From the NCBI RefSeq assembly GCF_019977355.1, contig NZ_AP024655.1, positions 4,340,001 through 4,404,000 on the forward strand: 64,000 nucleotides of DNA, in the 5' to 3' direction. Position numbers and translations under genes: made by a program. Positions 1 through 58,051 of the stretch are shown piece after piece (position 1 is the stretch's first letter; each line of letters begins with the position of its first letter). The notes beneath the pieces are model-generated. The model saw nothing but the letters and a program-made list of their open reading frames with translations. It did no database searches and was not told where the DNA came from. This DNA is from Arthrobacter sp. NicSoilB8. GTDB lineage: Bacteria; Actinomycetota; Actinomycetes; Actinomycetales; Micrococcaceae.

Positions 1-1230
1 TGCTTTGAAGGGTCGTTCCAGGTCGACAAAGGCCGGGTGTTTTCTGGCTCGGACATAGGCGAACAGGCTGATGCCGTTGGCGCAGGTGTAACCAATCGCC
101 GCGGCCGCAAGAATTGCCGCGAGGGATCCCATCGAAATCAGGACCACGTTAAATGCTGCGGTGACGAGCAAGGCAATGAACGGGGTGCCGTGGCGGTTCG
201 TTTTGCCGAAGACCTTAGGGAGGTTGCCTTCCGTCGCCATGGAGTGCATGGCGCGGGATGAACCCAGATAGGCCGTTTGGATGATCAGGATCATGGCCGC
301 GATCAACATGATGATGGTGATTATGGAGCCGGCCTCGCCAAAGACAGCCCGGGCCACCGGAATCAGTGGCGACACGGGCTCGGCCCGTACACCGTCAACA
401 CCAAGCACCCCGATCACTGCGGTTTGGACCAGTACATATGAGAAAAAGCAGATGATGCCGCAGGCAAACAGCGCCTTGGGGACATCTTTGGCCGGATTTT
501 TGTACTCAGGGCCATAGATCGCTGCCGTTTCCCAGCCACAGGCACTCCACTGCGCGATCGCGAAGATGCCAAAGAGAATCAGGATGTGGTGCATGTCCCA
601 GGCCCAGTCGGCCGGTAACCAGTTGCCGGTGATGTTGGCTAGCTCGACGTGTCCGGTCGCGAAAGGTGCCACGGTCAGGATAACGAGCGGTATCAAGGAA
701 ACAGCCGCCAGGATGTAACCCAGAATGGCGCCGTCCTTGAGGCCGAACCAGTTGACCATGAACAATCCGGCGAAAATTACCAGACCGGAGATCAACGAGA
801 GCTGGTACTCGGTGAATGTCGCGGCCAGCACCGGGAACAGCCCATGCAGGTAGCCGCCGACCAGGATGGCGAAGATCGCCAGTACCGGGTTCCAAGCAAA
901 CCAGTAGCTCCAGGCGCTGAACCCGCCGATCAGCTTGCCCTTGTCGTACTTGCCCTTGTAGTTTTCGGTGCGAAATATATGCTGTGCATAGCCCGGAAGG
1001 CCCGAGGCCTTGGGAAACGTGGTGGCCATTTCAGCGTATGCGGCGTTCTGCATGAAACCCTGAAGGACCGATAATCCCCAGATCAGGATCGCCGCGGCAG
1101 ATAAATACAGCGGAATATAGCCCAAAGAGGGCAGTATCAGCAAGGGCACGCCCAGCGAAATGGCCAAACCCTGCTTCCAGTCAATCGACCTTTTCAAATG
1201 ATCGACTGCAAGCAAACTGTTTTCACTCAT
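1..1230 (-). CDS. APC-family amino acid/amine permease (3' end outside window)
   Basis: The reading frame is open from the ATG at 1230 to the window edge (about 410 codons, no stop), so the C-terminus is missing. It starts MSENSLLAVDHLKRSIDWKQ and has repeated hydrophobic helices typical of APC-superfamily permeases. The start has an AAAGGAG ribosome site. It is a clear paralogue of the permease at 50822-52306: the two align nearly along their whole length without gaps but differ at many third positions, so this is not a recent copy. It faces away from the cupin/tmm genes. Substrate is unknown; location suggests uptake of an N-methylated amine or a related amino compound (inference). Confidence 0.88.
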   Translation of the reverse strand, partial: MSENSLLAVDHLKRSIDWKQGLAISLGVPLLILPSLGYIPLYLSAAAILIWGLSVLQGFMQNAAYAEMATTFPKASGLPGYAQHIFRTENYKGKYDKGKLIGGFSAWSYWFAWNPVLAIFAILVGGYLHGLFPVLAATFTEYQLSLISGLVIFAGLFMVNWFGLKDGAILGYILAAVSLIPLVILTVAPFATGHVELANITGNWLPADWAWDMHHILILFGIFAIAQWSACGWETAAIYGPEYKNPAKDVPKALFACGIICFFSYVLVQTAVIGVLGVDGVRAEPVSPLIPVARAVFGEAGSIITIIMLIAAMILIIQTAYLGSSRAMHSMATEGNLPKVFGKTNRHGTPFIALLVTAAFNVVLISMGSLAAILAAAAIGYTCANGISLFAYVRARKHPAFVDLERPFKA

Positions 1231-1551
1231 AAAAATTCTCCTTTGAATTGCGGTGAAAAACTACAAACAGCCCTGCGGGCAAGTGATGACGCGTAACTTT
1301 GCCATTGCCACAAACCACTGAGTGATCAAAGATGGCATCTCTGGGTAATAGCAACCGGGATATAAACGCGAATAGGCAGGCCGTAGTTTGCCACCTTCAA
1401 ACGTTTGGGAGCTGGGTTAGCCGTTGCGCGACATTAGCCAGATCTGCAGTTGGAGGGTTGTCCTCCGATTACTGGGGGCGTTGAGCCCGGTAACTCCGGG
1501 GCCTCAGCTTGAGGAAAGCGTGTAGGCGTCCCGTAACCGGCTGTGACCGGC

Positions 1552-1965
1552 TCAGATTTCGAAGTATCGGAAGGAATGTGACTCCAGGCCTTCCGGGTTG
1601 GGGCCGTAGACGGTGACCATGCGTGCGTAGACCGGGGCCCAGTATCGGCCGAGTTGTCCGGGGTTTACGCGTGCTGAATCGCCTGGCCTCAGGATGACAG
1701 TCTTGCCTTCGCTCTCGACGTGGAGCTCGCCTTCCAGTACGAAGTTCGTCTCGGTGTGGGGGTGGAAGTCTTCCCACCCGCAGGACGTCAGTTCCCATTC
1801 CGACAAGATGAAATCATCCCAGCTGCCTACAGGATCAGCGTTGATGAACCTGCAGTGCAGTCGTTGCCATTCTTCCTTCATAGGCTTCATGGCCTTCATT
1901 GGCCAGAAGTCGATCTTTTCCCCTGCCTTAGGTGTCAGGGGCTGAGGAGTGGTGGTAGTGGCCAT
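1552..1965 (-). CDS. Cupin-domain protein
   Basis: This 137-residue single-domain cupin begins MATTTTPQPLTPKAGEKIDF. It has a near-canonical first cupin motif (FHPHTETNFVLEG: HxH, then E-x6-G) and a second-motif-like RPGDSARVNPG, so it could bind a metal. An AAGAAGGG ribosome site lies about 10 nt before the ATG. It is divergent from the cupin at 2395 and shares a 430-bp intergenic region rich in palindromes with it. It is not closely similar to the other cupins in the window. Function is unknown; it may be an enzyme or ligand-binding accessory of methylated-amine metabolism. Confidence 0.8.
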   Translation of the reverse strand: MATTTTPQPLTPKAGEKIDFWPMKAMKPMKEEWQRLHCRFINADPVGSWDDFILSEWELTSCGWEDFHPHTETNFVLEGELHVESEGKTVILRPGDSARVNPGQLGRYWAPVYARMVTVYGPNPEGLESHSFRYFEI

Positions 1966-2394: not shown

Positions 2395-2775
2395 ATGGAA
2401 ACCACCCTCGTAGGAAAGCTCAGCAAGACCGGATCCATCCACAAGGTGGAAGGCGGCTACGTCGGTCTGCCGCCGATGAACGAGCCCGGGACGGACGCTG
2501 CCATCGGTGACTCCCTCCACAATCCGCAGGGCTCGGTCATGTGTGCCGGGTTTTTCGAGCTCAAAGCGTCGGAGCCGCTGGTGTACACGTACACCTACGA
2601 CGAGATGAAGGTCGTCATCAAGGGTGAGTTCATCCTCACTGACGAGGCGACCGGAGAAGTCACGCACGCGAAGGAGCGTGACGTGCTGTTCTTCCCGAAG
2701 GGAACGACGGTCAAGTTCGAGACCCCTGAGCATGCTCTGGGGTTCTTCGTTGGCGACCGCACTTTTGCACCCTAG
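2395..2775 (+). CDS. EutQ-like small cupin, linked to tmm
   Basis: A 126-residue protein starting METTLVGKLSKTGSIHKVEG, preceded by AAAGGAG 6 nt before the ATG. It is a paralogue of the cupin at 52720-53100, which opens the dimethylamine monooxygenase operon; the two agree over nearly the full length. The segment that usually carries the cupin HxH metal ligands reads VYTYTYDEMKVVIKG, with tyrosines instead of histidines, as in some EutQ-type cupins, so metal binding by the usual ligands is doubtful. A strong hairpin (2790-2830) follows the stop, and tmm starts about 400 bp later. Function unknown; a role in binding or processing TMAO or another methylated amine is a hypothesis. Confidence 0.85.
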   Translation: METTLVGKLSKTGSIHKVEGGYVGLPPMNEPGTDAAIGDSLHNPQGSVMCAGFFELKASEPLVYTYTYDEMKVVIKGEFILTDEATGEVTHAKERDVLFFPKGTTVKFETPEHALGFFVGDRTFAP

Positions 2776-2789
2776 ATCAGCTACGCGGT

Positions 2790-2830
2790 CCGGTTCCATG
2801 CCTCGGCAGCAGGTGCCGGCATGGAACCGG
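2790..2830 (+). terminator. Hairpin after cupin gene
   Basis: A perfect 13-bp stem (CCGGTTCCATGCC with its complement at 2818-2830) and a 15-nt loop begin 14 bp after the cupin stop. No clear T-run follows, so it may be a weak or attenuating terminator between the cupin and tmm. Confidence 0.55.
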
Positions 2831-3117
2831 CCGGCAGACCAATGGCATTGATGCCGTTGGTGTAGGCAACCCGAAGACCATTTCGGACCTGGTGTCCGTG
2901 CATGGAGGTCCGCGCGTCTGCTCCGTCTCGTGCTTTCGGGGTTCTCTCCGGACAGGCTGTCAGGGACGGCGTCACCACCCCGCATTCTCTAACCGCTCTC
3001 TGGACGTATCGGCCTCGGCTTTGCACTAGCCGGACTCCGGAATGGCGTGGCCGAGCGCAAAGACATCGCCGCGCCATCACAAACCGGTATCTGTCTGATT
3101 GCCGGCAGGACACGTAG

Positions 3118-4578
<1,461 letters not shown>

Positions 4579-4908: not shown

Positions 4909-5496
4909 ATGCGGGTATCCACAAAAGATCGAAAAGAACAGCTGATTTCAGCAACCGTGGAACTAATGAGGCGTAAGGGTGTTCAGTCCGTGACCATGCG
5001 GGCTATCGCTAAAGAGGCTAATGCCCCCTTGGCCACCGCCCATTATTGCTTCAGCGATAAAGAAGAGCTCATGGAGGCGGCCGCCGAGGCCTGGCTGAAG
5101 AACCTCAGCAGTTATTCCGGTGACGTCCCGGTCCACCTGGGGCTTCGTAAGGCGGTGGAACAAGTAGCCGAAGGCTACTGGCGAGCATTAGAAAAAGAAC
5201 CGGCCAGCCTCCTTGCTGAGATCGAACTCATTCTGTGGGCAACACGCAATGCCCCCGGCAGCCCTCTGGCCGCGAAGATTTATCCTGCATACGAAGTGGA
5301 ACTGGGAAATATATTCTCCTCCGCGGCCCAAAACAATGGTGACCAGTGCCGTATTGGCGTACCTGCGCTCGTAAGGTCTTTCCTGATGATCTACGACGGA
5401 GCGGCCCTGCAATACATGACCGACCCGAAGGCGACCGACCACCGCGCCTTGTTCTTCATGACGCTTGATGCACTGCTGACCAGAGCCGGCGTCTAA
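4909..5496 (+). CDS. TetR-family transcriptional regulator
   Basis: A 195-residue protein with an N-terminal TetR helix-turn-helix (VTMRAIAKEANAPLATAHYCFSDKEELMEAA, residues about 25-55) and a helical ligand-binding C-terminal half. It is the only TetR gene in the window and lies beside tmm. The paired 24-bp palindromes at 2068 and 2163 have the form of TetR operators and are good candidate targets. The inducer is not evident; TMA, TMAO or formaldehyde are possibilities. Confidence 0.88.
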   Translation: MRVSTKDRKEQLISATVELMRRKGVQSVTMRAIAKEANAPLATAHYCFSDKEELMEAAAEAWLKNLSSYSGDVPVHLGLRKAVEQVAEGYWRALEKEPASLLAEIELILWATRNAPGSPLAAKIYPAYEVELGNIFSSAAQNNGDQCRIGVPALVRSFLMIYDGAALQYMTDPKATDHRALFFMTLDALLTRAGV

Positions 5497-9338: not shown

Positions 9339-9638
9339 GTGAATTTGACCGTGATGACCGGACCGGCCTCGGACGTATCCGGGGAAGCCTTCACCGGCAG
9401 CGTCTCCCTTGTCCTGGACGAGATCGCGGATACCGCCGCAGGCATCGAGGGGCAGCAGGTCGCCGACCTGGCCCGTCATCTCAGCCAGCCGGGCCGGGTG
9501 TTCGTGGCCGGCGAGAGCTCTGGCTCCGGCACGCCAACCTCGAATAACCGGGGCCCCTCAATTTCCATACCCGCCGTAGTTTCCACTCAATTTTCAACAC
9601 CCACCGCGTTGCCCAACAGAAAGAAAACACCATCATGA
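9339..9638 (+). pseudogene. hxlB: 6-phospho-3-hexuloisomerase, internally deleted
   Basis: Starts with the same GTG and GGAGGAGGAGAA ribosome site as copy 2. After codon 58 it jumps to the last codons of the gene: compared with 13468-14067, bases equivalent to 13643-14033 (391 bp) are missing. As 391 is not a multiple of three, the tail is read out of frame and ends at a TGA overlapping the hxlA start (9635). Most of the SIS domain is lost, so this copy should be inactive, but the fused frame may still couple translation to hxlA. Confidence 0.92.
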
Positions 9639-10258
9639 AGCTCCAAGTTGCTATCGACTTCCTGACCACCGAAGCCGCCCTCGAACTCGCCGGCCAGGTT
9701 GCCGAATTCGTGGATATCATCGAACTCGGTACGCCGCTGATCAAGGCCGAAGGCCTCTCCGTCATCACCGCGATCAAGAACGCCCACCCGGACAAGGTCG
9801 TCTTCGCTGACCTGAAGACGATGGACGCCGGTGAACTTGAAGCCGACATCGCCTTCAAGGCCGGCGCCGACCTGGTCACCGTGCTCGGTGCAGCCGACGA
9901 CTCCACCATCGCCGGCGCCGTCAAGGCCGCCAAGGCCCACAACAAGGGCATCGTCGTGGACCTCATCGGTGTCGCCGACAAGGTCACCCGTGCCAAGGAA
10001 GTCCGCGCCCTGGGTGCGAAGTTCGTCGAGATGCACGCCGGCCTGGACGAGCAGGCCAAGCCCGGCTTCGACCTGAACGGTCTGCTCCGCGCCGGCGCAG
10101 AAGCCCGCGTTCCGTTCTCCGTCGCCGGCGGCGTGAAGCTCGCCACCATCGCAGACGTCCAGAAGGCAGGCGCCGACGTCGCCGTCGCCGGCGGCGCCAT
10201 CTACGGTGCAGCCGACCCCGCCCTGGCCGCCAAGCAGCTCCGCGCAGCCATCAACTAA
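9635..10258 (+). CDS. hxlA: 3-hexulose-6-phosphate synthase (copy 1)
   Basis: 207 residues, orotidine-decarboxylase-like TIM barrel. It condenses formaldehyde with ribulose-5-phosphate to hexulose-6-phosphate, the entry step of the RuMP cycle. Seen: MKLQVAID start, EFVDIIELGTPLIKAEG, VFADLKTMDAGELE (catalytic Asp-x-Lys-x-x-Asp) and VAGGVKLATI. It differs from copy 2 by Phe for Leu at residue 9. hxlB upstream is broken, so this copy may depend on HxlB made elsewhere. A strong hairpin follows at 10282. Confidence 0.95.
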   Translation: MKLQVAIDFLTTEAALELAGQVAEFVDIIELGTPLIKAEGLSVITAIKNAHPDKVVFADLKTMDAGELEADIAFKAGADLVTVLGAADDSTIAGAVKAAKAHNKGIVVDLIGVADKVTRAKEVRALGAKFVEMHAGLDEQAKPGFDLNGLLRAGAEARVPFSVAGGVKLATIADVQKAGADVAVAGGAIYGAADPALAAKQLRAAIN

Positions 10259-10281
10259 CCAGCCGGCCGCCCCCAATGACC

Positions 10282-13467: not shown

Positions 13468-14067
13468 GTGAATTTGACCGTGATGACCGGACCGGCCTCG
13501 GACGTATCCGGGGAAGCCTTCACCGGCAGCGTCTCCCTTGTCCTGGACGAGATCGCGGATACCGCCGCAGGCATCGAGGGGCAGCAGGTCGCCGACCTGG
13601 CTCGTCATCTCAGCCAGCCGGGCCGGGTGTTCGTGGCCGGCGCGGGCCGGAGCGGCCTGGTCCTGCGGATGGCCGCCATGAGGCTGATGCACCTGGGCTT
13701 GAATGTCCACATCGCCGGTGACACCACCACTCCCGCAATCGCTTCCGGTGACCTGCTCCTGGTGGCCTCCGGATCGGGGACGACCTCGGGAGTGGTCAAG
13801 TCAGCCGAAACGGCGGCCAAGGCGGGAGCACGGATCGCAGCGTTCACCACCAACGCGAGTTCACCGCTCGCCGGCCTCGCCGACGCCCTGGTGATCATTC
13901 CCGCCGCGCAGAAGACCGACCACGGCTCCAGCGTTTCCCGCCAGTACTCGGGGTCCCTGTTCGAGCAGGTGCTGTTCCTCGCCACCGAAGCCCTCTTCCA
14001 GTCGCTGTGGGACAACACCGATGTGCCCGCCGAAGAGCTCTGGCTCCGGCACGCCAACCTCGAATAA
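13468..14067 (+). CDS. hxlB: 6-phospho-3-hexuloisomerase (copy 2, intact)
   Basis: 199 residues, one SIS (sugar isomerase) domain. It converts hexulose-6-P to fructose-6-P, the second RuMP step. Seen: RVFVAGAGRSGLVLRMAAMR, LNVHIAGDTTTPAI, DLLLVASGSGTTSGVV (phosphate-binding Ser/Thr loop) and KTDHGSSVSRQYSGSLFEQ near the C-terminus. The GTG at 13468 is chosen for its GGAGGAGGAGAA site; upstream frame extension has no ribosome site. From codon about 49 on it is nearly identical in DNA to copy 3 (47027-47626), but the first 48 codons differ. Confidence 0.95.
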   Translation: MNLTVMTGPASDVSGEAFTGSVSLVLDEIADTAAGIEGQQVADLARHLSQPGRVFVAGAGRSGLVLRMAAMRLMHLGLNVHIAGDTTTPAIASGDLLLVASGSGTTSGVVKSAETAAKAGARIAAFTTNASSPLAGLADALVIIPAAQKTDHGSSVSRQYSGSLFEQVLFLATEALFQSLWDNTDVPAEELWLRHANLE

Positions 14068-14149
14068 CCGGGGCGCAAATCTCACCCGCCGTAGTGTCCA
14101 CTCAATTTTCAACACCCACCGCGTTGCCCAACAGAAAGAAAACAACATC

Positions 14150-14773
14150 ATGAAGCTCCAAGTTGCTATCGACCTCCTGACCACCGAAGCCGCCCTCGAA
14201 CTCGCCGGCCAGGTTGCCGAATTCGTGGATATCATCGAACTCGGTACGCCGCTGATCAAGGCCGAAGGCCTCTCCGTCATCACCGCGATCAAGAACGCCC
14301 ACCCGGACAAGGTCGTCTTCGCTGACCTGAAGACGATGGACGCCGGTGAACTTGAAGCCGACATCGCCTTCAAGGCCGGCGCCGACCTGGTCACCGTGCT
14401 CGGTGCAGCCGACGACTCCACCATCGCCGGCGCCGTCAAGGCCGCCAAGGCCCACAACAAGGGCATCGTCGTGGACCTCATCGGTGTCGCCGACAAGGTC
14501 ACCCGTGCCAAGGAAGTCCGCGCCCTGGGTGCGAAGTTCGTCGAGATGCACGCCGGCCTGGACGAGCAGGCCAAGCCCGGCTTCGACCTGAACGGTCTGC
14601 TCCGCGCCGGCGCAGAAGCCCGCGTTCCGTTCTCCGTCGCCGGCGGCGTGAAGCTCGCCACCATCGCCGACGTCCAGAAGGCAGGCGCCGACGTCGCCGT
14701 CGCCGGCGGCGCCATCTACGGTGCAGCCGACCCCGCCCTGGCCGCCAAGCAGCTCCGCGCAGCCATCAACTAA
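14150..14773 (+). CDS. hxlA: 3-hexulose-6-phosphate synthase (copy 2)
   Basis: 207 residues, differing from copy 1 by one residue (Leu9) and from copy 3 only silently as far as compared. It has the same catalytic ADLKTMDAG motif. It lies 82 bp after the hxlB stop, so the pair is co-transcribed. The start ATG has only a weak AGAAAGAAA upstream. gap follows about 220 bp downstream. Confidence 0.95.
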   Translation: MKLQVAIDLLTTEAALELAGQVAEFVDIIELGTPLIKAEGLSVITAIKNAHPDKVVFADLKTMDAGELEADIAFKAGADLVTVLGAADDSTIAGAVKAAKAHNKGIVVDLIGVADKVTRAKEVRALGAKFVEMHAGLDEQAKPGFDLNGLLRAGAEARVPFSVAGGVKLATIADVQKAGADVAVAGGAIYGAADPALAAKQLRAAIN

Positions 14774-14992
14774 CCCCCTCCTTCGGAAAGACCGGCGGCG
14801 CACGGGTGTTCGTCTTGGCCGGCTCTTCGACCAAGACGAAGGGTATGAGGGCATTTTTGGACATCCGGTCCGTATCTCATCGGACCAAAACAGCACGGCG
14901 GCACAACCTAAGCAAAGAGCCGTCAAATTCCTGGAACATCTCAGGAGCTGAAGCCCCCACAGACCCGACCCCCTTTTTGGAAAGGCAGCCCG

Positions 14993-16567: not shown

Positions 16568-16930
16568 ATGAGCAAAACCTTCCAGCCCGCAGAGCTCTTC
16601 GCGGGAGAGCTAGACGAATCCCTGCTCGGCCCTCCCCTGGCCGAGGTGCTAGGCGACGAGATTCCAACGAGAATTTCCATCCCCTTCACCAGCGACGACT
16701 CCCGCATCCTCTCTGGAGTCTGGGAGGCCGAACCCGGCCTCTCGCGGTGGGAGTTTCTGGAGCGCGGTGAGGTGATTCACGTCCTTGAAGGGCGCATGGT
16801 GGTCACTGAGGACGGCGGTGAACCGGTCACACTGGAGGCCGGAACCGCCGGCTTCTTTCCCATCGGGTGGCGAGGGACCTGGGAGATCCAGGAACGGATC
16901 AGAAAATTCTTTGTGATCTTCACGCCCTGA
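16568..16930 (+). CDS. Cupin-domain protein (DUF861-like)
   Basis: 120 residues. The core LERGEVIHVLEGRMVVTEDG and the glycine-rich LEAGTAGFFPIGWRGTWEI fit the single-domain (S)-ureidoglycine-aminohydrolase-type cupins. The HxH ligands are replaced (SRWEFLERGE), so a metal site is doubtful. AGAAAGGAAAATCC precedes the ATG. It is followed by a textbook hairpin (16950-16978). It is the fourth distinct cupin in the window; function unknown. Confidence 0.78.
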   Translation: MSKTFQPAELFAGELDESLLGPPLAEVLGDEIPTRISIPFTSDDSRILSGVWEAEPGLSRWEFLERGEVIHVLEGRMVVTEDGGEPVTLEAGTAGFFPIGWRGTWEIQERIRKFFVIFTP

Positions 16931-30043: not shown

Positions 30044-30715
30044 TCATGCGGCCAGGGCGGCGAACATCAGGGCCATGACTGCGGCGCCGAGGGCTTCGAG
30101 TCCGTGTTCTGGGCGGACGGAGCGCATTGGCCCCGCCGCGTGGCGGAGAGTGGTTGTCGTTACCCGGGCACACAGTAAAAAGATAAGGAAAACCACTGCC
30201 GCGGTGGCGAAGATGATTGTCAGTGGGATGGCGAGATTGGGCAGGTGATTGAGGGTTGCGGTGGCTGTAGTGGGGGTTGCGGCTGTCATCGCGTGGTGGG
30301 CGTGCGGCATTGACGTTCCGCCTGGCGGAACAATTTCGTGGCTCGCTGTTGTGGTCATCTGACCCATCATGGTGGCCATGAGGGCGGCGCCGGCCATGCT
30401 GAGGCTGTGGTAAGCGCATTTGAGCCGGCCTTGGCTGCCGGCGCAGAGTATTTTGAATTCCGGCCGGGCGACCGCCTGAATGATAAACCACAGTGCCGCG
30501 CCGGCGAGGACTGCGATCTGGGCCAGCATGGTCGAGGGCGCGAGGTTCCACAGCATGGCCGCCATCAGGGCGTTCATAAGGGCATGGAGACTGTAGTTAA
30601 CGCGGTCGGTGACGTGGTGGGACCGTGTCGCCTGCAGAACGTGATAGCTTCCGCCAAGCAGCAGCACGGCCGTGAGGGTCCAGGTAATTGCGGGGATATT
30701 GAACACGCGGATCAC
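30044..30715 (-). CDS. DUF5134 membrane protein (copy 1)
   Basis: 223 residues, about five membrane helices (ITWTLTAVLLLGGSYHVLQA at the N-terminus; LAIPLTIIFATAAVVFLIFLL near the C-terminus). A methionine/histidine-rich loop (MATMMGQM, SMPHAHHAMT) could bind copper. It is almost identical to 58052-58720 for about 175 residues, after which the C-terminal tails differ. Both copies lie downstream of a methylamine oxidase gene, so a role in copper delivery to that enzyme is a fair hypothesis. Family assignment is from memory. Confidence 0.75.
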   Translation of the reverse strand: MIRVFNIPAITWTLTAVLLLGGSYHVLQATRSHHVTDRVNYSLHALMNALMAAMLWNLAPSTMLAQIAVLAGAALWFIIQAVARPEFKILCAGSQGRLKCAYHSLSMAGAALMATMMGQMTTTASHEIVPPGGTSMPHAHHAMTAATPTTATATLNHLPNLAIPLTIIFATAAVVFLIFLLCARVTTTTLRHAAGPMRSVRPEHGLEALGAAVMALMFAALAA

Positions 30716-30748
30716 ACTCTCACTACAGGGTTGGGACAGGTACGGGTT

Positions 30749-30847
30749 CGGTCCCCGACGCGACTCTCGACAGCGCCGGGGACCGAAGGTGGTGGGGTCC
30801 GGAAAAGGGGGCGATCCCCGATGCCGCTGCGGACGGCACCGGGGACC
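30749..30847 (-). terminator. Two GC-rich hairpins between permease and DUF5134 gene
   Basis: GGTCCCCG (30749) pairs with CGGGGACC ending at 30784, and a second stem pairs 30813-30826 with 30834-30847. The same GGTCCCCGG...CCGGGGACC theme forms a perfect 36-bp palindrome at 57984, in front of DUF5134 copy 2, so the element travelled with the duplicated gene. Confidence 0.6.
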
Positions 30848-30859: not shown

Positions 30860-32518
30860 CTAGTCCTTCTCCCGTTCCAGGCTCGTCTCCAGCTCCAGTT
30901 CATCGAGCTCCCGCCCCAGTTGACCTGAGGCTCGCTGCCGCTCCAGTTCCCTGATGGTTTCGAGATCGATCGGGCGCAACGGCTCCGGATCTTCCTCGTC
31001 CAGGACGGGGCCGTGAGCATCGTCGGCGAGAACCACGTAACCGATAGTCTCGTACCTGAGCGGATCGGTCTTCCGAAGGTACAAGGCCAGGGCCGCCCCA
31101 GCGATAAAGAGCCCTGCGGCGATGTAGGGGATGAGCTTGAAAAGCAGGGACGACGCTGCAGGTCCGGCAGCCGTGTCCAAATTCAGACACATCAGGATGA
31201 CGACACCAAGCATCCCCACTCCACCGACTATCGGAGCGACTTTGGTGCGCCATACGTTCTCTTCCGGGTGGTGCTTGCGGAAGTAGTTGAACACCGCGCC
31301 CATGGTCACCGTCTGCACAATCAGGAGCGTGAATGTCCCGAGTACCGCCAGCAGGACAAAGACATCCAGGTATGGGTCCTTGTTGAAGAACCAGAATCCG
31401 AGAATCCACAGGATTGCAATACCTGTCTGGAGGAACGACGCGACATGCGGCGACCCGTGCTTCGGGTGGGTCTTGCCCAGGACGCTGGGCAGGATTCCTT
31501 CCCGTCCCAGGGAGTACATGTAGCGTGCTGCGGCGTTGTGGAAGGCCATCGCGCAAGCGAAGGATCCGGTCATCATCAGCCACTCCATGACCAGAACCCA
31601 CCCGTGCCCTACAAAGACGTCCGTGGGGTGAAAGAACATGTCGAGGGGATTAGCGCTTTGCGCCAAAGCTATGGCTTCGTCGGCGCCGTTCCCGGCGACG
31701 GACATCCAGGAGACGAACGTGTAGAAGATGCCGACTCCGGTGACCGCGATCAACGTGGCGATAGGGACGATCTTCTTCGGGTTCTTCGATTCCTCCCCAT
31801 ACATGACCGTCGATTCAAATCCGGTCCAGGACCAGAACGCAATGAACATCGCGAGACCCGGCGCGGCCACCTGCAGACCGTTTGGCAGGAATATATTGAC
31901 TGGATTCAGCGTCTGAGGCATCAGCCCGTCGGGGCCGCCGCCATGGAAGAGCACGCCGAAGGCCATGATTGCGAGAATCCCGATCTCAGTGGCCAGCAGC
32001 AGTGTAAGAATTTTCGCTGCGAGGCTGATCTCGAAGTAGGTCAGAAACCCGATTAAGAGGAGGCCGACCACGGCGAAAACGACCCAGTGAATATCCACCC
32101 CGAGTTGGTCCTGGAAAGCCAGATGGCCGAAGTAGGAAAAGATACCGATGATGCTCGCCTCAAAGACGATGTAGCTGAAGGTGACCATGAAGCCAGTCCC
32201 GAGGCCAAGCACGCGTCCCAAACCGCGGGAAATGAATCCGTAGAAGGCCGCCGTTGAAGTCACGTAGCGGGCCATGGAGACATAAGCGACCGCAAAGACC
32301 GTCAGGATAACCGTCGCCCAGATATACGTTGCCGGGGTTCCTGTTCCGACGCCGTAGCCGACCGAAAACGGGACATTTCCGCTCATCACCGTAATCGGTG
32401 CGGACGTCGCGACGGCCATGAAAACCACATCCCACAGCCCCAGAGTGTTGGCTTTTAGCTTGCCCGGTTGGGAGCCCTGCTTAGGAGGAGCGTTTCCGCC
32501 GGGGCTTTGGGCGCTCAT
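30860..32518 (-). CDS. APC-superfamily permease in the methylamine oxidase operon
   Basis: 552 residues, about 12 helices, with a charged cytoplasmic C-terminal tail of about 60 residues (DEEDPEPLRPIDLETIREL...). The N-terminal GLWDVVFMAVATSAPITVM is typical of APC transporters. Its ATG overlaps the stop of methylamine oxidase copy 1 (ATGA), so the two are translationally coupled, and methylamine or a related amine is the likely substrate. The second oxidase copy has no permease after it. Confidence 0.88.
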   Translation of the reverse strand: MSAQSPGGNAPPKQGSQPGKLKANTLGLWDVVFMAVATSAPITVMSGNVPFSVGYGVGTGTPATYIWATVILTVFAVAYVSMARYVTSTAAFYGFISRGLGRVLGLGTGFMVTFSYIVFEASIIGIFSYFGHLAFQDQLGVDIHWVVFAVVGLLLIGFLTYFEISLAAKILTLLLATEIGILAIMAFGVLFHGGGPDGLMPQTLNPVNIFLPNGLQVAAPGLAMFIAFWSWTGFESTVMYGEESKNPKKIVPIATLIAVTGVGIFYTFVSWMSVAGNGADEAIALAQSANPLDMFFHPTDVFVGHGWVLVMEWLMMTGSFACAMAFHNAAARYMYSLGREGILPSVLGKTHPKHGSPHVASFLQTGIAILWILGFWFFNKDPYLDVFVLLAVLGTFTLLIVQTVTMGAVFNYFRKHHPEENVWRTKVAPIVGGVGMLGVVILMCLNLDTAAGPAASSLLFKLIPYIAAGLFIAGAALALYLRKTDPLRYETIGYVVLADDAHGPVLDEEDPEPLRPIDLETIRELERQRASGQLGRELDELELETSLEREKD

Positions 32519-34464
32519 GATTCGTGTCCGTTACAGCATGTTCCGGTGTTGGTTGTTTCGGTTCGGTTTTCGTTGCTGGGCAGGTTCAGGGTGGGGTTTT
32601 GGTCGAAGAAGCCGTGGGGTTCGAGCATGAAGCCGATGTTCTGGCGGGGCATGACGGGCCAGTCTTCGAGGCGGACGACGTGGTGCATGCCGAAGGTGTA
32701 CCAGACGACGAGGTCCTGGTCGACGATGTTCCGGTCTGCTTTGGTCCAGATGTGCAGGCCGTCGTCGGCGCCGGTGGCCTGGTTGGGGAATTCGCCGGCT
32801 GCGAAGCGTTCGGTCCGGTCGTAGGCGGTGACCCAGAGGTTGTTGCGGGCGAACTGGGCTCGTTTGCTGACGTAGGACTCGTCGCCGGCGGCGAGCTGGA
32901 TGCCGTCGGTGGGGATGAGGCGGTAGGCGACCGGTTCGTTGACCAGGTTCTTGCTGTCGCGGTTGGCGATCTTCCAGAAGCGGTGCTTGGAGGAGTCTGT
33001 TTTCCGGATGGCGGCCTGTTCGGTTTCCAGGAGCCGGTCCACTGCCATGAAGGCGGTGTGGGTGGGGTTGTCTTCGGGGATTTTCATGTCCACTTCGTAG
33101 ACGGCGTTGCGGGGTCCGTCGATTTCGAAGTCCATGCGGACGTTGAACATGTGCTGGTGGATCGGTGCGTAGAGTCCGTCGTTGTTCAGGGTCTGGCCGT
33201 AGGGGCTCTTCTCGCCGGGCTTCTGGCCGGCGGTGGAGAGGATGCCGGTGGCCTTGACCAGGAACTCGATGCTGCCGTCGAGGAAGAGGTGCCAGTAGAA
33301 GGCGTACTCGTAGTTCGCGACGGTGGCGATGAAGGAGATCACGAGCTTGCGGCTGCGCCGGGTTTCGGTGGTGCCCTCGCGGAAGTCGAAGTGCTTCCAG
33401 AGGATGGAGTCGTCTTCCTCGTGCATGCAGATGGCGTTCTCGATGGTCAGCGGGTTGCCGTGGCTGTCGGCGGTGATGCCGTCGAAGTACTTGATTTCGC
33501 CCAGGCAGTCACAGCCCAGGGTCAGGGAGTTGGCCATGTTGCCGATGTTGTATTCGCCGGAGTCGAAGGCGTTCTTTTTGGCCTGGACGGGGGCGGTATC
33601 GCCGTAGGGGACGACCATTTCCGACAGTGAGGCCCGGTTGATCACGGGACGTTCGACGCCCTTGTTGCGGAACTTCAGCTGGTGCAGGACCAGGCCCTCG
33701 CGGGGGGTGAAGCCGACACGGAAGGACCAGTCGGCCCACTGGACGTGGTTTCCGGTGACCGTGAAGGACGCGCCTTCGGGCTGGGTGATGGAGATCGGCT
33801 TGAGGTCGGTGCGGGCCGGCCCGACGTACTTGGGCAGGTAGTTGCCGCTGGCGCTGGGGACGGGGATGGCCTGGTCATCCTCGACCTTGACGACGTCCCC
33901 GGAGTTCAGGTCCACGATGACGATGAAGTTCTCGATCGGGTGCGCGTACGGGCTGTCATCGGCCTCCTCGCGGACGAACACCAGGGCGCGCATCAGGCGC
34001 CGGCCCTCGTCGTCTTCACCGAAGTAGCCCACGGACCACGGCTCGAAGCAGACCAGGGACATGTCGGTGATCCCGCGCTTGGCCAGGGCGGCCTGGACCT
34101 CGGGGTTCTTCCGGCAGCTCTCTTCACCCTCGGCGAACTCGTCCAGCATGAACGGAGGCTGGATGTTCGCAGCCAGCTGCGTCCATTTCGAGACGATGCC
34201 CGAATCAAGGTCGACAATCGCTTCGTAGGAACGTCCCTCGGCACGGTTGACCAGGACCGCGTCAGCCTCGCGCACCGTCTGAGCGCCGCTCCGCAGCAGT
34301 TCCTTCTCCGGCTCGCGCAGCTCAATACTGATAAAGCGGAACGACTCCGCCGCGGCCTGGCCACCCTTCAGGATCGCAGCCGCCCGGGAAATCTCGGCGC
34401 GGGACAACGGATCCAGAGGGTGCGATACCCCTACAACGGTCTCGGTTTCAGTGTTAAGAGTCAT
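32515..34464 (-). CDS. maoX: Copper/TPQ methylamine (primary amine) oxidase, copy 1
   Basis: 649 residues. Oxidises methylamine with O2 to formaldehyde, NH3 and H2O2. The topaquinone precursor is Tyr385 in TVANYEY, the catalytic base Asp301 (AFDSGEYNIG), and copper ligands His436 and His438 (APIHQHMF) with His595 (GMHHVVRLEDWP). No signal peptide, so cytoplasmic. Length and sequence style match the Arthrobacter P1 enzyme, for which two near-identical genes are known. AAGGAG precedes the ATG. It is base-for-base alike to copy 2 except the last codons (NGHES here, TDK there). Confidence 0.95.
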   Translation of the reverse strand: MTLNTETETVVGVSHPLDPLSRAEISRAAAILKGGQAAAESFRFISIELREPEKELLRSGAQTVREADAVLVNRAEGRSYEAIVDLDSGIVSKWTQLAANIQPPFMLDEFAEGEESCRKNPEVQAALAKRGITDMSLVCFEPWSVGYFGEDDEGRRLMRALVFVREEADDSPYAHPIENFIVIVDLNSGDVVKVEDDQAIPVPSASGNYLPKYVGPARTDLKPISITQPEGASFTVTGNHVQWADWSFRVGFTPREGLVLHQLKFRNKGVERPVINRASLSEMVVPYGDTAPVQAKKNAFDSGEYNIGNMANSLTLGCDCLGEIKYFDGITADSHGNPLTIENAICMHEEDDSILWKHFDFREGTTETRRSRKLVISFIATVANYEYAFYWHLFLDGSIEFLVKATGILSTAGQKPGEKSPYGQTLNNDGLYAPIHQHMFNVRMDFEIDGPRNAVYEVDMKIPEDNPTHTAFMAVDRLLETEQAAIRKTDSSKHRFWKIANRDSKNLVNEPVAYRLIPTDGIQLAAGDESYVSKRAQFARNNLWVTAYDRTERFAAGEFPNQATGADDGLHIWTKADRNIVDQDLVVWYTFGMHHVVRLEDWPVMPRQNIGFMLEPHGFFDQNPTLNLPSNENRTETTNTGTCCNGHES

Positions 34465-34485
34465 GGTTTTCTCCTTGATTGTTCA
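32534..34485. repeat. 1.95-kb inverted repeat, arm 1 (methylamine oxidase)
   Basis: Aligns in opposite orientation with 55940-57891. The match starts 21 bp upstream of the ATG (TGAACAATCAAGGAGAAAAC) and ends 5 to 6 codons before the stop. In the segments compared I saw no differences, including silent sites. Confidence 0.85.
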
Positions 34486-46267: not shown

Positions 46268-46320
46268 AGGTGGCGTCTCGCAGCCGTTGGGAGTGCGGGA
46301 CGTCACCGTCAACCGGCTGG

Positions 46321-46944: not shown

Positions 46945-47026
46945 GATGGTGTTTTCTTTCTGTTGGGCAACGCGGTGGGTGTTGAAAATTGAGTGGACAC
47001 TACGGTGGGTGAGATTTGCGCCCCGG

Positions 47027-50463: not shown

Positions 50464-50821
50464 ACAAGATACCGCGGGACAGCCCCAGTCCTTCGACACC
50501 GGAGGGGGAACTTCTCCGACTTTGGCACACCCTCGTCCAAGTCGTTCGGGTTCGATGCTAGTTGCGTCTTCGCAAGCTGCCCATGGGCGCATTTTTCGGT
50601 CTGGCAAGCATGGCTTTATTCATCCGCCACGACGGAGCCCGTCCCGTTTGCTCGCCGGACCGCCGTCGGATATTCATGCTGCTGCAGGACCGCCTGCTGA
50701 GTGGCATCGGCAGTACCACTCGCCGAAGCCGGTTGTGTTTTAACAGCCACTTTAGATCCAAAATCTACGTTGCCTAACTCACAAAGTCAGAGACGACTTT
50801 AAGTAGTTGAAGGAGATTTTT

Positions 50822-52306
50822 ATGAATGAAAATCGTTTAGATGGAGCCGATCACCTGGAACGGTCGATCGATTGGAAGCAGGGTTTGGCCATTGCGCTGG
50901 GTGTGCCTTTGCTCGTTCTGCCCTCCTTGGGCTACCTTCCGCTGTACTTGTCGGCTGCAGCAATTCTTATCTGGGGGCTATCGGTCATTCAGGGTTTCTT
51001 CCAGAACGCTGCATATGCTGAGATGGCTACGACCTTTCCCAAGGCCTCCGGTCTTCCGGGTTTTGCGCAGCATGTATTCCGGACCGAGAACTACAAGGGC
51101 AAGTACGACAAGGGCAAGCTGATCGGCGGGTTCAGCGCCTGGAGCTACTGGTTTGCCTGGACCCCGGTACTGGCTATCTTCTCCATCCTGGTCGGCGGAT
51201 ACCTGCATGGGCTCTTTCCGGTGCTGGGAGAAACGTTCACCGAGAATCAGCTCGCTCTGATAACAGGGGTGGTGATTTTCACCGGCCTGTTCACGGTCAA
51301 CTGGTTCGGCCTCAAGGATGGCGCCATCCTGGGTTACATCCTGGCGGCCGTTTCGTTGATACCGCTGGTTATCCTGACCGTGGCACCTTTCGCCACCGGA
51401 CACGTCGAGATGGCCAACATCACCGGCAGCTGGTTGCCGGCAGACTGGGCATGGGACATGCACCATATCCTGATTCTGTTTGGCATCTTCGCGATTGCGC
51501 AGTGGAGTGCCTGTGCATGGGAAACGGCAGCGATCTACGGGCCTGAATACAAAAACCCGTCCAAAGATGTACCCAAAGCGCTGCTTGCCTGCGGCATCGT
51601 CTGCTTTTTCTCGTTTGTCCTGGTACAAGGTGCGGTGATCGGAGTGCTTGGTGTTGACGGCGTGCTAGCCGAGCCCGTGTCGCCGCTGATCCCGGTGGCC
51701 CGGGCAGTCTTTGGCGAAGCCGGTTCAATCATTACCATCATCATGCTGATCGCCGCCATGATCCTGATCATTCAGACCGCCTACCTCGGTTCATCCCGCG
51801 CCATGCACTCCATGGCGACGGAAGGCAACCTCCCCAAATCCCTCGGCAAGACGAATCGCCACGGCACCCCCTTTGTTGCCATGCTGGTCATCGGAGCCTT
51901 CAACTTGGTGCTGATTTTCATGGGAAACCCGGCGGCAATCGTCGCAGCGTCTGCGATCGGTTACACCTGCGCCAATGGCATCAGCCTGTTCGCCTATGTC
52001 CGAGCCAAGAAGCACCCGGCCTTCGCCAACCTGGAACGACCCTTCAAAGCACCGAAGGGCTGGAAGCATGTCGCCATGCTCTTTGGCCTATTCAACCTAC
52101 CCCTATGCCTGGTCGGTGTGGTCTACCTGAACAGCCTGGAGATCGGCTGGACGCCGACTTGGGTCGGGTTCATAGTACTGGCGCTCTACATACCCATCTG
52201 GTTCTACTCCCAGCATGAAACAAGACGCTCCAAATCCAATTCAGCCACTGCCTCTTCTTCAGATCACGATGCCCCAGAACCGGAAAAAATGCTGGACCTT
52301 AGGTAA
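50822..52306 (+). CDS. APC-family amino acid/amine permease
   Basis: 494 residues, about 12 helices, with GAAGGAG before the ATG. Paralogue of the partial permease at 1-1230. Segments such as IAQWSACAWETAAIYGPEYK and LGSSRAMHSMATEGNLPKSLG are shared. It lies upstream of the cupin-dmmABC operon, with a 19-bp-stem hairpin between, so dimethylamine or a related compound is the likely substrate (inference). Confidence 0.9.
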   Translation: MNENRLDGADHLERSIDWKQGLAIALGVPLLVLPSLGYLPLYLSAAAILIWGLSVIQGFFQNAAYAEMATTFPKASGLPGFAQHVFRTENYKGKYDKGKLIGGFSAWSYWFAWTPVLAIFSILVGGYLHGLFPVLGETFTENQLALITGVVIFTGLFTVNWFGLKDGAILGYILAAVSLIPLVILTVAPFATGHVEMANITGSWLPADWAWDMHHILILFGIFAIAQWSACAWETAAIYGPEYKNPSKDVPKALLACGIVCFFSFVLVQGAVIGVLGVDGVLAEPVSPLIPVARAVFGEAGSIITIIMLIAAMILIIQTAYLGSSRAMHSMATEGNLPKSLGKTNRHGTPFVAMLVIGAFNLVLIFMGNPAAIVAASAIGYTCANGISLFAYVRAKKHPAFANLERPFKAPKGWKHVAMLFGLFNLPLCLVGVVYLNSLEIGWTPTWVGFIVLALYIPIWFYSQHETRRSKSNSATASSSDHDAPEPEKMLDLR

Positions 52307-52719: not shown

Positions 52720-53100
52720 ATGGAAACCACCCTCGTAGGAACACTGAGCAAGGCCGGATCCATCCACAAGGTAGAAAACGGCTACATCGGACTGCCGTCG
52801 ATGAACGAGCCCGGGACGGTCGCTGCGATCGGCGATTCCCTCCACAACCCAGAGGGCTCGGTCATGTCCGCCGGGTTCTTCGAACTGAAGGCCTCCGAGC
52901 CGCTGGTGTACACGTACACCTACGACGAAATGAAGGTCGTCATCAAGGGTGAATTCATCCTCACGGACCAGACGACGGGAGACGTGACGCACGCCAAGGA
53001 GCGCGATGTGCTGTTCTTCCCCAAGGGCACCACCGTCAAGTTCGAGACCCCCGAGTACGGCCTGGGGTTCTTCGCCGGCGACCGCACCTTCGAGCCGTAA
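52720..53100 (+). CDS. EutQ-like small cupin, first gene of the dmm operon
   Basis: 126 residues, paralogous to 2395-2775. The ATG at 52720 with ATAGGAG is chosen over the 52660 start because it gives the same METTLVG N-terminus. It again has VYTYTYDEMKVVIKG in place of the HxH metal motif. Only 9 bp separate its stop from dmmA, so it is the first cistron of a cupin-dmmABC operon. This linkage and the same cupin next to tmm imply a function common to both steps, perhaps the TMAO-to-DMA link, formaldehyde capture or substrate binding; none is shown. Confidence 0.88.
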   Translation: METTLVGTLSKAGSIHKVENGYIGLPSMNEPGTVAAIGDSLHNPEGSVMSAGFFELKASEPLVYTYTYDEMKVVIKGEFILTDQTTGDVTHAKERDVLFFPKGTTVKFETPEYGLGFFAGDRTFEP

Positions 53101-53109: not shown

Positions 53110-53592
53110 ATGCGTTCCGCGTCCATGCCGCCAGCAGCCGGCACCGGCCTGGAACCTGGTTTCCGCGGTGTCATCTGTGTATCATTCGGATCCACAGGTG
53201 ACACCGCAGTTCCAGACACCGATGGCCAGCCCCGCTACGATCTCCATTTCGAAGCAGCAACCGCCGACACCCTCTCGGAACTCAAGTCCGTGTTCAGCAG
53301 TTCCCGTGTAGGCGTCCGCCTTGTGCTCGCAGGCCCCCCCACGGATATCCGTGCAGCCGCCGCAGCCGCCGCGGACTGTGGACTTCTGGGCGAGGAGGTA
53401 ACACTCCTGCCTCATGAAACCGGGCCCCGGTTAGTTTATTGCCCGCATTGCCTTACCACCACCATTGATGTGGGAGCCGGCACCGAGGTGAAGTGTCAAG
53501 GATGCACCACCACCTTGAGCATCACTGATCACTTTTCCCGACGAAGAGGCGCATACCTGGGCTACTCAGCCCATGCCGAGGAGGCAGCATGA
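53110..53592 (+). CDS. dmmA: Dimethylamine monooxygenase subunit DmmA-like
   Basis: 160 residues. C-terminal zinc ribbon or metal knuckle: Cys111, Cys114, Cys129, Cys132 (CPHC-x14-CQGC). AAGGACC precedes the ATG, and the stop overlaps the dmmB start (ATGA). The order dmmA-dmmB-dmmC with a flavin/2Fe-2S reductase and a DUF3445 haem protein fits the bacterial dimethylamine monooxygenase. The role of the small subunit is not clear from sequence. Confidence 0.8.
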   Translation: MRSASMPPAAGTGLEPGFRGVICVSFGSTGDTAVPDTDGQPRYDLHFEAATADTLSELKSVFSSSRVGVRLVLAGPPTDIRAAAAAAADCGLLGEEVTLLPHETGPRLVYCPHCLTTTIDVGAGTEVKCQGCTTTLSITDHFSRRRGAYLGYSAHAEEAA

Positions 53593-54575
53593 CCGCCACA
53601 GCGCTCCAGCCCCATGTCCACCCGGCGGTGGAGGGAGGCCTCCACCTCGAGGTGACAAACGTCAGCCGTCAGACGGAATCGATTGTCAGCATTACATTGG
53701 CTGCTCCGGAAGGTGGAAGGTTGCCCTCCTACGTCCCGGGAAGCCACCTGGTAGTTCAATACGGGAGCGGCGTCAACGCATACTCGCTGACAGGTTCAGG
53801 CAACGCGCCATCCGAATACAACATCTCTGTGCTGAGGGTCGAAGAGGGTGCCGGCGGCTCCGTGGCCATGCACCGGCTCTCCGTCGGTGACCGGGTTAAC
53901 GTTTCGCGCCCCCGGAGTGCGTTTGCGCCCGCATCAACAGCGAAGCATCATCTGCTTGTTGCTGCAGGCATCGGGATCACGCCGATTCTTTCGCATGCCA
54001 GGGCCGCGGTAGAACGTGGCAACACAGCATCAATGATCTACGTGCACCGGCCAGCCGCCGGCGCCCACGTGGCGGAAGCGCGGGAACTGCTGGGGCCGGG
54101 GTTGACCGCTTTGGTCGAGTGCACTGACCGGGGCAGTTTCCAAAATGTTCTGGCGGAAGCGCTTATCACGCAGCCCCTCGGAACCCACCTCTACGTGTGC
54201 GGTCCGGTTGTCTTCATGGATGCGGTCCTCGAAGAGGCCCGCAGCCAAGGCTGGTCATCCGCCCGGCTCCATTCAGAAGCCTTTGGCGCAGCCGAACTGG
54301 ATGCGGGCGAACCTTTTACGGCGCATCTGGCACGCAGCGGCGTTCGCTTGGAAGTTCCGGCCGGCGTTTCGCTGCTGGAGACGCTCGAAGCGGCAGGGAA
54401 AACCATCCCCAATATGTGCCGCAAAGGAATCTGCGGCGAATGTGTCCTCCCGGTACTTCGCGGCGTACCTCAGCACCGGGACCTTTACCTGTCCGACCAG
54501 GAAAAAGCAGCGAACGCCACCATGATGTGCTGTGTTTCGCGCAGCAACGACCCAGAATTGGAGTTGGACCTTTGA
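53589..54575 (+). CDS. dmmB: Dimethylamine monooxygenase reductase subunit
   Basis: 328 residues, phthalate-dioxygenase-reductase type. Flavin site (AYSLTG, about 64-69), NAD(P) site (VAAGIGITPILSHA and LYVCGP), and a C-terminal plant-type 2Fe-2S domain with Cys277, Cys282, Cys285 and Cys315 (CRKGICGEC...CC). It passes electrons from NAD(P)H to the haem subunit. The stop overlaps the TTG start of dmmC. Confidence 0.92.
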   Translation: MTATALQPHVHPAVEGGLHLEVTNVSRQTESIVSITLAAPEGGRLPSYVPGSHLVVQYGSGVNAYSLTGSGNAPSEYNISVLRVEEGAGGSVAMHRLSVGDRVNVSRPRSAFAPASTAKHHLLVAAGIGITPILSHARAAVERGNTASMIYVHRPAAGAHVAEARELLGPGLTALVECTDRGSFQNVLAEALITQPLGTHLYVCGPVVFMDAVLEEARSQGWSSARLHSEAFGAAELDAGEPFTAHLARSGVRLEVPAGVSLLETLEAAGKTIPNMCRKGICGECVLPVLRGVPQHRDLYLSDQEKAANATMMCCVSRSNDPELELDL

Positions 54576-55573
54576 GTAGCACAATCATCGATATTGATCC
54601 TGACGCCGCCCTCCTCCCGGAACGGATCAGGCGCTTCCCCTTTCCTTTTGCCTCCGACACCTACCGGTACAGCGCGAACGTCGAACCGGCCACCAAGACA
54701 GCACCGACAGAAGCCGGCGCCTGGGGAGCCCATTTGGTGGACATCGATGAACATTATCTGGACGAACTGGCCGAGCGCGCCAAGGTACTGAGCCGCGACC
54801 CTTCCCGTGTGAATGTCCTCCCCCACATGCGACCGGCAGTATGGGACGCCCTCACCACTCTGCTGTCCTCCATGGCGGAAGATTACCCGGATACGATGTC
54901 GTTCCAGCGTGAAGGAAACAGCTGCCGCTGGCGTAATGGCTTGCAGAATCTCGAGGTGGAATTCACCGTCGGCGACGACAGTTCACTGCCGGAGGGGCCA
55001 ATGCGGTTCCTCGGCAGCCAGATCCAGGACGACATCATTCTTCTTGACGTCCGTGAAGATACGCTGTGGCTGGATGCCGGCCTCGTGACGTTCGCCGCCG
55101 ACTGGTCATTCGGATTCGATGTCGGCATGAACTTCCTCGAAATCCACCACCCCGTCCCGCGGGTAAAGGAAGAACGCATCATCAGCCGGGCTGAGCAGTT
55201 CCTGTTGCGCCTGCAGCCCGGGGAACAATTCCGGCGGACCAACTGGACGATGACCATCGGCCGGCGTATGGACACCTCCACGGAAACCTACCCTGAATGG
55301 GGCCCGGACCGCAGCACCATAGCCGACGACCCTGCCATGCCGGAGAAGCTCCATCTGCGGGTGGAAGTACAGCACTTGATCCGTCTCCCCCACTCCGGTG
55401 CCCTCCTGTTCTTGGTGCGGACCCACCTCTTGCCCCTCACCGACATTGCCCGGGTACCTGCGTGGCGGGAAAAAATGGGCCATGTGCTGGCCGAACTACC
55501 CGACGACATGGCCGAATACAAAGGCATCATCCGCTATCGCAAAGCGGCATCTGATTGGCTGCTGGCGCGCTAA
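54572..55573 (+). CDS. dmmC: Haem-dependent oxidative N-demethylase (DUF3445) subunit
   Basis: 333 residues from a TTG overlapping the dmmB stop. It starts SSTIIDIDPDAALLPERIRR and has the family's RFPFPF, VNVLPHMRPAVWDAL, NWTMTIGRRMDTSTETYPEW and LRVEVQHLIRLPHSGALLFLV segments. DUF3445 proteins are haem proteins of oxidative N-demethylases. With DmmB it should oxidise dimethylamine to methylamine and formaldehyde. Methylamine oxidase follows 390 bp downstream and handles the product. Confidence 0.9.
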   Translation: MSSTIIDIDPDAALLPERIRRFPFPFASDTYRYSANVEPATKTAPTEAGAWGAHLVDIDEHYLDELAERAKVLSRDPSRVNVLPHMRPAVWDALTTLLSSMAEDYPDTMSFQREGNSCRWRNGLQNLEVEFTVGDDSSLPEGPMRFLGSQIQDDIILLDVREDTLWLDAGLVTFAADWSFGFDVGMNFLEIHHPVPRVKEERIISRAEQFLLRLQPGEQFRRTNWTMTIGRRMDTSTETYPEWGPDRSTIADDPAMPEKLHLRVEVQHLIRLPHSGALLFLVRTHLLPLTDIARVPAWREKMGHVLAELPDDMAEYKGIIRYRKAASDWLLAR

Positions 55574-57983: not shown

Positions 57984-58019
57984 CGGTCCCCGGTGCTGTA
58001 GCTACAGCACCGGGGACCG
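57984..58019 (+). terminator. Perfect 36-bp palindrome after maoX copy 2
   Basis: Left arm CGGTCCCCGGTGCTGTAG, right arm its exact complement, with no spacer. Transcripts from either strand would fold into an 18-bp hairpin less loop. It lies between maoX and the DUF5134 gene. A related broken form lies at 30749-30847. Confidence 0.75.
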
Positions 58020-58051
58020 ACCTGCACCTGCCCCAACCCTGTAGTGAGAGT

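Follow-up and report, generated by a model that had tools for sequence, protein, structure and literature searches.

The small EutQ-like cupin that precedes the trimethylamine (TMA) monooxygenase gene tmm in the DNA analysed here is probably (we put the probability at roughly 0.8) a dedicated accessory of the haem-type dimethylamine (DMA) monooxygenase operon, Dmm/HODM, in certain Gram-positive bacteria and not a trimethylamine N-oxide (TMAO) demethylase, the copy before tmm being the survivor of a decayed cupin-dmmABC-tmm operon. The DNA, referred to below as the window, comprises 64,000 nucleotides (contig C1, 4340001-4404000) of the genome labelled G000 in our comparisons. The cupin leads the dimethylamine-oxidation genes in many soil actinobacteria. 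How Gram-positive methylotrophs without the demethylase Tdm break down TMA past TMAO has been a question since 2015 or earlier (PMC5023230). Our results remove the obvious cupin as the likely TMAO answer, explain its adjacency to tmm by decay of a dmm operon, and name testable candidates for the TMAO step, namely another cupin at position 1552 and, elsewhere, a protein family that we call X.

The linkage of the cupin to tmo and mao is already in print. In Arthrobacter and Mycobacterium, McTaggart 2015 described near-identical EutQ cupins in the vicinity of Tmo and Mao, with > 80% identity between the genera, found no aminomethyltransferase-type Tdm close to Tmo, and suggested that the cupins take part in the oxidation of methylated amines (PMC5023230, in excerpt). 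Their candidate for the demethylase, Tmd, was a ferredoxin-flavodoxin protein encoded between Mao and EutQ (genes 2723, 2725, 2727, strain 31Y), which by gene order is the window reductase at 53589-54575, here read as part of Dmm. The same excerpt names no separate DMA monooxygenase and contains neither the decayed operon nor the Tdm coexistence nor the pocket signature. In the open-access literature we found no later paper settling the function of the cupin, nor the demethylase idea for it.

The two cupins and the genes around them

The features of the window on which the argument draws are as follows.

1..1243, minus strand: permease gene running off the left window edge, 86% DNA identity to 50810-52051
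2395..2775, plus strand: EutQ-like cupin, tmm-side copy, 126 aa; PF06249 35.4 bits and PF05899 27.5 bits, both above cut-off
3160..4578, plus strand: trimethylamine monooxygenase, tmm; NF058570 equivalog 737.4 bits, cut-off 675
4909..5496, plus strand: TetR-type regulator, found repeatedly near tmm; no NCBIfam match above cut-off
50807..52306, plus strand: permease upstream of the dmm operon; scores highest, though below cut-off, with the NCBIfam models for TMAO permease and ethanolamine permease
52720..53100, plus strand: EutQ-like cupin, dmm-side copy, 126 aa; passes the Pfam EutQ and Cupin_3 cut-offs
53110..53592, plus strand: DmmA-like subunit of the DMA monooxygenase; PF22289 57.8 bits, NF041259 99.1 bits (cut-off 60)
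53589..54575, plus strand: reductase subunit; PF22290 and Fer2
54575..55573, plus strand: haem-dependent oxidative N-demethylase (HODM) alpha subunit; PF11927 230 bits
55961..57907, plus strand: putative methylamine oxidase gene (mao) with a near-identical inverted copy at 32515-34464

The first-pass annotation of the window had placed the same small cupin before tmm and at the head of the dmm operon, and this proved correct: the two proteins are 88% identical, the one separated from tmm by 384 bp, a distance that implies no tight coupling, and the other from the DmmA-like gene by 9 bp. Its naming of tmm and dmmABC also agrees with the family models, Tmm scoring above its equivalog cut-off and the DmmA-like, PF22290/Fer2 reductase and PF11927 HODM alpha genes standing in a row behind the dmm-side cupin, with mao after them. 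The name mao is putative and follows the gene order in PMC5023230.

Against PF06249 (EutQ; gathering cut-off 21) the two cupins score 35.4 and 37.5 bits, and with a limit of E <= 0.001 a search of the whole genome (5.17 Mb, two contigs) gave these two matches only. The dN of 0.058 against a dS of 0.573 between the copies points to purifying selection; the Dmm-linked cupin is a real gene under selection, noted before in print.

Remnants of a dmm operon before tmm

The DNA similarity of the two cupin copies extends beyond the stop codon, and comparison of the spacer 2776-3159 with the window's own dmm operon by blastn gives three collinear matches.

2785..2828, plus strand: dmmA 5' end remnant, matching 53112-53156; E 2e-05, 78% over 45 columns
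2951..2983, plus strand: weak match, possibly a remnant of the central part of HODM alpha, to 54831-54863; E 0.007, collinear with the other two
3017..3106, plus strand: HODM alpha 3' end remnant, matching 55478-55566; E 2e-08, 68% over 90 columns

The local score of either outer remnant (2785..2828, 3017..3106) was reached by 0/500 shuffled spacers. Across loci, matches to dmm operons occur in 12/26 cupin-tmm spacers (12/17 of those of at least 100 nt) and in 0/520 shuffles, some of the matches being only 29 to 42 nt long and two spacers of locus L073 being near-copies. Locus L063 still shows cupin, dmmA, pieces of the reductase gene, HODM and tmm in succession, and a Rhizobium plasmid carries dmmD, dmmABC and tmm in that order. 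To judge from these matches, the tmm-side cupin appears to have headed a second cupin-dmmABC-tmm operon and to have outlasted its decayed dmm genes, and the simplest history would be such an operon beside the mao-linked one, followed by dmm loss. Promoter capture behind the spread of the cupin was considered and rejected: the similarity begins about 30 bp before the start codon, and a shared promoter was not seen in it.

The repeated linkage to tmm and dmm had been put forward as a pointer to function. Since the cupin next to tmm is what a decayed dmm operon has left behind, with pieces of dmmA and HODM alpha in the spacer, the two linkages are not independent.

Neighbours of the cupin across genomes

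A scan of named genome contigs gave a similarity-found set of 68 loci with 75 cupin copies. The gene immediately downstream belongs to dmm in 35 of these and is tmm in 25; a further 2 copies precede dmm remnants, 4 are found at contig ends, and 9 have neither dmm nor tmm behind them. Part of these 9 lie with the two other cupin types near a BCCT gene, partly on the opposite strand. The next gene is a transporter in few cupin loci (permease in 2/73, BCCT in 1/73). The second sample, of 394 genomes, was drawn evenly from the class and not by context, and with a cupin threshold of E <= 1e-15 it contains the cupin in 9 genomes, HODM in 39 and tmm in 10. Since HODM is present in 9/9 cupin carriers (39/394 overall; Fisher 4e-10, the genomes not being independent) and tmm in 4/9, with 5/9 lacking it, the common partner of the cupin is the DMA monooxygenase. 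For 11 of the 12 cupin copies in these nine genomes the next recognised downstream gene is tmm, a dmm gene or Tdm, if one counts the copy of G115, whose dmmA itself is unrecognised and whose reductase lies about 670 bp downstream; the twelfth (L121/L072) is flanked by a 1552-type cupin in divergent and a BCCT gene in convergent orientation. The specific part in methylated-amine breakdown that the first-pass annotation proposed is upheld by these 11 copies, and a part in DMA N-demethylation is likely.

A further set consists of 38 cupin genomes (G000-G037), shares G000 and G025 (= G232) with the class sample, and includes 27 genomes with tmm and 11 without it. In a tree of 73 cupins, which has few resolved forks, the before-tmm/before-dmm label needs 20 changes, the shuffled means being 19.9 and 19.8, and 297 and 302 of 500 shuffles are as low as 20. 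Four sets of identical cupin proteins stand before tmm as well as before dmm, and no tmm-specific lineage was seen in this sparsely resolved tree.

The reverse association is looser. Among the 39 HODM genomes of the class sample the surroundings of 23 were read: the cupin is in front in 7, dmmD in 1, the cupin lies elsewhere beside Tdm in 2, the contig is cut in 2, and neither gene occurs in 11, "neither" applying to the stretch read, which in G279 shows only about 1.3 kb upstream. The dmmD gene heads the dmm operon instead of the cupin in the actinobacterium G240 and in the Rhizobium plasmid, where it is annotated as an aminomethyltransferase and called dmmD by its position. As a strict replacement for DmmD the cupin was rejected on the same count. 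Because 11/23 HODM surroundings are without cupin and dmmD, the cupin is thus not general for Dmm: either its step is dispensable there or those HODM enzymes serve other amines.

Two further arrangements were observed in these loci. In L165 (G176), L166 (G343), L183 (G115), L074 and L075 a single cupin is followed by two tandem dmmA-reductase-HODM sets; the second HODM of each pair shares 41-55% identity with that of the window, and a second amine substrate for it is possible. In other loci a gene that we take to belong to the BCCT-type transporter family lies near one to three small cupins (L015:11106-13145, L026:10863-12929, L059:6480-8498, L066:4759-6777, L072:10869-12857). It is preceded in L015, L059 and L066 by a piece of the dmm reductase, and here the BCCT gene may have replaced lost dmm genes.

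Tdm and the missing TMAO step

The earlier statement that a Tdm-type demethylase is missing holds genome-wide: a domain search found no fused DUF1989-GcvT (Tdm) gene in the genome of the window, where GcvT matches at six places (five above cut-off) and DUF1989 at three, unfused, and separate genes of both kinds lie on contig C2. Likewise no full-length match to the Rhizobium Tdm was found there, whereas two control plasmids did match. The gap after TMAO in this TMA pathway is confirmed as real. A split Tdm with standalone DUF1989 was rejected as a general solution, since at E 1e-10 this domain is found in only 14/38 cupin genomes, in a search by which two of the window genome's three DUF1989 genes were recovered. 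A second HODM acting on TMA was also rejected, PF11927 being present in a single copy in that genome.

It would be natural to see in the EutQ-like cupin itself the missing TMAO demethylase of Tdm-less actinobacteria, since 0/38 cupin genomes (including the 27 that bear tmm) have a full-length Tdm, 27/38 have tmm, and 25/75 copies stand before tmm. In G319 and G327, however, one strand carries in succession the cupin (identity 50 and 49%), a full-length Tdm that shares 58% identity with its Rhizobium counterpart, and tmm, in G327 with the matched stretches within about 20 bp of each other, and the dmm operons of both genomes are located elsewhere with no cupin in front. Genomes G164, G240 and G341 of the class sample possess tmm and Tdm and have no cupin match, and G141, G259 and G316 possess tmm without full-length Tdm, cupin or HODM. 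Owing to this coexistence and to the cupin-less tmm genomes, the cupin neither excludes Tdm nor is needed by tmm. Of the neighbourhood pattern that had been expected, the co-occurrence with HODM stands (9/9 carriers) and the absence together with Tdm does not.

The remaining evidence points the same way. Many cupin carriers are without tmm (5/9 and 11/38), a tmm-specific lineage is not seen, the adjacency to tmm derives from a decayed dmm operon, and the cupin is without His ligands, whereas Tdm binds Fe2+ and Zn2+ (PMC12560246, in part). Tdm shares with the cupin the position next to tmm and differs from it in being a metal-binding protein of unrelated sequence, 789 aa long in Rhizobium. On these grounds we rejected the cupin as TMAO demethylase; this reading is unlikely, indeed extremely improbable, and the part in TMAO processing once suggested for it is not borne out. 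The same two genomes also count against the reading that we prefer, a Dmm accessory: in G319 and G327 the cupin is not placed before dmm but next to Tdm, a protein that itself already contains a GcvT domain.

A Tmm above the equivalog cut-off was also detected in C. glutamicum, used as a control genome. This protein and those of G141, G259 and G316 indicate that Tmm seems to be used also outside the full TMA pathway.

The cupin pocket and its possible role

Among 216 similarity-selected sequences of the cupin family, Y64 is conserved in 215, Y66 in 214, D69 in 215, E70 in 216 and K72 in 214, and position 68 holds Tyr in 196 and Cys in 17. The alignment to 4axo places Y64, Y66, E70 and V106 at the metal-ligand positions of cupins, so that neither the HxH...E motif nor the fourth His is present; the earlier remark that tyrosines occupy the place of metal-binding His was right. 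In 4axo the same positions hold Trp94, Leu96, Glu100 and Ile134, and the loss of His ligands is a known trait of the EutQ family (PMC3483176, partial text). Foldseek ranks EutQ structures (2pyt, 4axo) first for the cupin, and in VIA-align many cupins tie as fold matches, such that function is not derivable from fold comparison. With EutQ the window cupins share the barrel, the YDE motif and the lack of His ligands. They differ from it in being without the N-terminal region of about 100 aa, in having Tyr/Tyr/Lys for Trp/Leu/Asp, and in their placement in amine-oxidation operons. They are not EutQ proper: against the equivalog NF012001 they reach 40.3 and 39 bits (cut-off 193) and match profile positions 144-218 only. 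As judged from the alignment, the Tyr/Tyr/Glu/Lys signature is what distinguishes the Dmm-linked cupin from EutQ, its database name. The Pfam search found neither a GcvT nor a DUF1989 domain in the two cupins, which are accordingly neither Tdm nor DmmD.

That the cupin keeps a EutQ-like acetate kinase activity, or serves the operon as a sensor or regulator, we consider quite improbable. EutQ structures are the closest solved ones, and acetate kinase activity is reported for the C-terminal cupin domain of the Salmonella EutQ (PMC12487888, in part); for the C. difficile EutQ the authors found no ligand or activity (PMC3483176, in part). The motif, however, is altered from that of EutQ (W to Y, L to Y, D to K), and the Pfam matches of the cupin include no DNA-binding family. 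We also know of no acetyl phosphate step in the pathway, which weighs against the kinase.

Dmm acts by oxidising a methyl group, which is expected to give a carbinolamine that splits into methylamine and formaldehyde; demethylation of TMAO, too, is expected to pass via an N-hydroxymethyl amine to amine and formaldehyde. In the pocket of the cupin the His ligands are replaced by Tyr64, Tyr66 and Glu70, and Tyr68 and Lys72 lie at alternating positions of the same stretch. Because such a Tyr, Glu and Lys pocket could bind or split an adduct of this kind, the cupin may bind the carbinolamine, or the released formaldehyde and amine, and might speed or control the split or the hand-over to the RuMP pathway, acting where some bacteria have the folate protein DmmD. 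We offer this mechanism on the carbinolamine or its split products tentatively; the whole explanation, Dmm accessory and carbinolamine/formaldehyde mechanism taken together, falls slightly short of even odds. AllA and YlbA (the latter presumably ureidoglycine aminohydrolase) are cupin folds that, as we take their hemiaminal chemistry to be, act on hemiaminal-type substrates, and the window cupin may be compared with them at the level of the fold. Cupins acting on N-C-O adducts do exist, since ureidoglycolate lyase, AllA, has a cupin fold, with nickel-dependent activity (PMC3793230, in part). DmmD is the GcvT protein of dmmDABC in Ruegeria and Methylocella (PMC5520151, in part); like the cupin it is the first gene of the dmm operon, and handling of the C1 product would be common to both by analogy, although its fold is unrelated.

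The main rival to the carbinolamine role is an amine-binding protein, in which the Tyr-rich pocket and Glu70 would hold di- or trimethylammonium in a cation-pi cage and so concentrate or buffer volatile amines, or hand them on, between the transporter and the oxygenase. The conservation of Y64, Y66, Y68 and E70 (215, 214, 196 and 216 of 216) is consistent with this, as is the position of some cupins before a permease or BCCT gene, the 1552-type cupin often leading a permease operon (15/35); the copies before transporters fit amine binding better than product handling. Lys72 (214/216), if it faces inward, nevertheless points away from a purely cation-binding pocket, and we regard amine binding as somewhat less probable than the carbinolamine role.

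Candidates for the TMAO step

Two other small cupins of the window enter here.

1552..1965, minus strand: second cupin type, 137 aa, next to the permease gene; D66, H68, H70 and E72 invariant
16568..16930, plus strand: third small cupin (Cupin_3); in other genomes, 41-46% identical relatives adjoin the other two cupin types

For the missing step the 1552 cupin is a better candidate than both the 16568 cupin and the EutQ-like cupins. It could perform the TMAO step in this cassette with its candidate metal ligands, and the unrelated family X could do so in another clade, a proposal that we consider doubtful. In its favour, the 1552-type cupin occurs in 24/27 tmm genomes and in 3/11 without tmm among the 38 cupin genomes, the three tmm genomes without it (G027, G028, G032) all hold X, and D66, H68, H70 and E72 are found in 23/23 sequences. 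Among the five genomes with Tdm and tmm it is absent in four, and G164 has a distant match on a contig other than that of tmm. The carriers, however, appear to share one laterally moved cassette, so that the counts represent few events, and G141, G259 and G316 have tmm, yet neither this cupin nor Tdm, nor HODM. A transport role fits equally well, the 1552-type cupin heading a permease operon in 15/35 cases and lying beside other cupins and BCCT without tmm. It also has no third or fourth canonical His; G003, G018 and G021 (all draft assemblies) carry it without a tmm match; G019 and G020 hold it together with X; and its AlphaFold model is poor (pLDDT 45.6). A bolder version would make the 1552 type a small Fe-dependent TMAO-splitting cupin unrelated to Tdm, and the Tyr/Tyr/Glu/Lys cupins carbinolamine lyases or formaldehyde hand-over proteins in the place of DmmD; this combination would be unlikely.

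Protein X, of about 260 aa, is a neighbour of tmm or of the cupin-HODM operon. It is encoded in L065:7633-8433, L067, L071:9105-9953, L077:9031-9810 and L078, its carriers including Arthrobacter sp. M4, Nesterenkonia and Paenibacillus, and it has a match in 7/38 cupin genomes. Three proteins of the family match no Pfam family, and none of their NCBIfam matches has an E-value below 0.28. We consider X a candidate enzyme of methylated-amine breakdown.

Repeats in the window

The two inverted copies of mao (32534-34485 and 55940-57891) share 99.95% identity over 1,952 bp. A gene that we take to be hexulose-phosphate synthase is present in three near-identical copies (9504-10266, 13534-14775, 46313-47560), and a further gene occurs twice at 91% (30051-30785 and 57984-58716). 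Judging by these near-identical repeats, the methylotrophy cluster of the window is duplicated.
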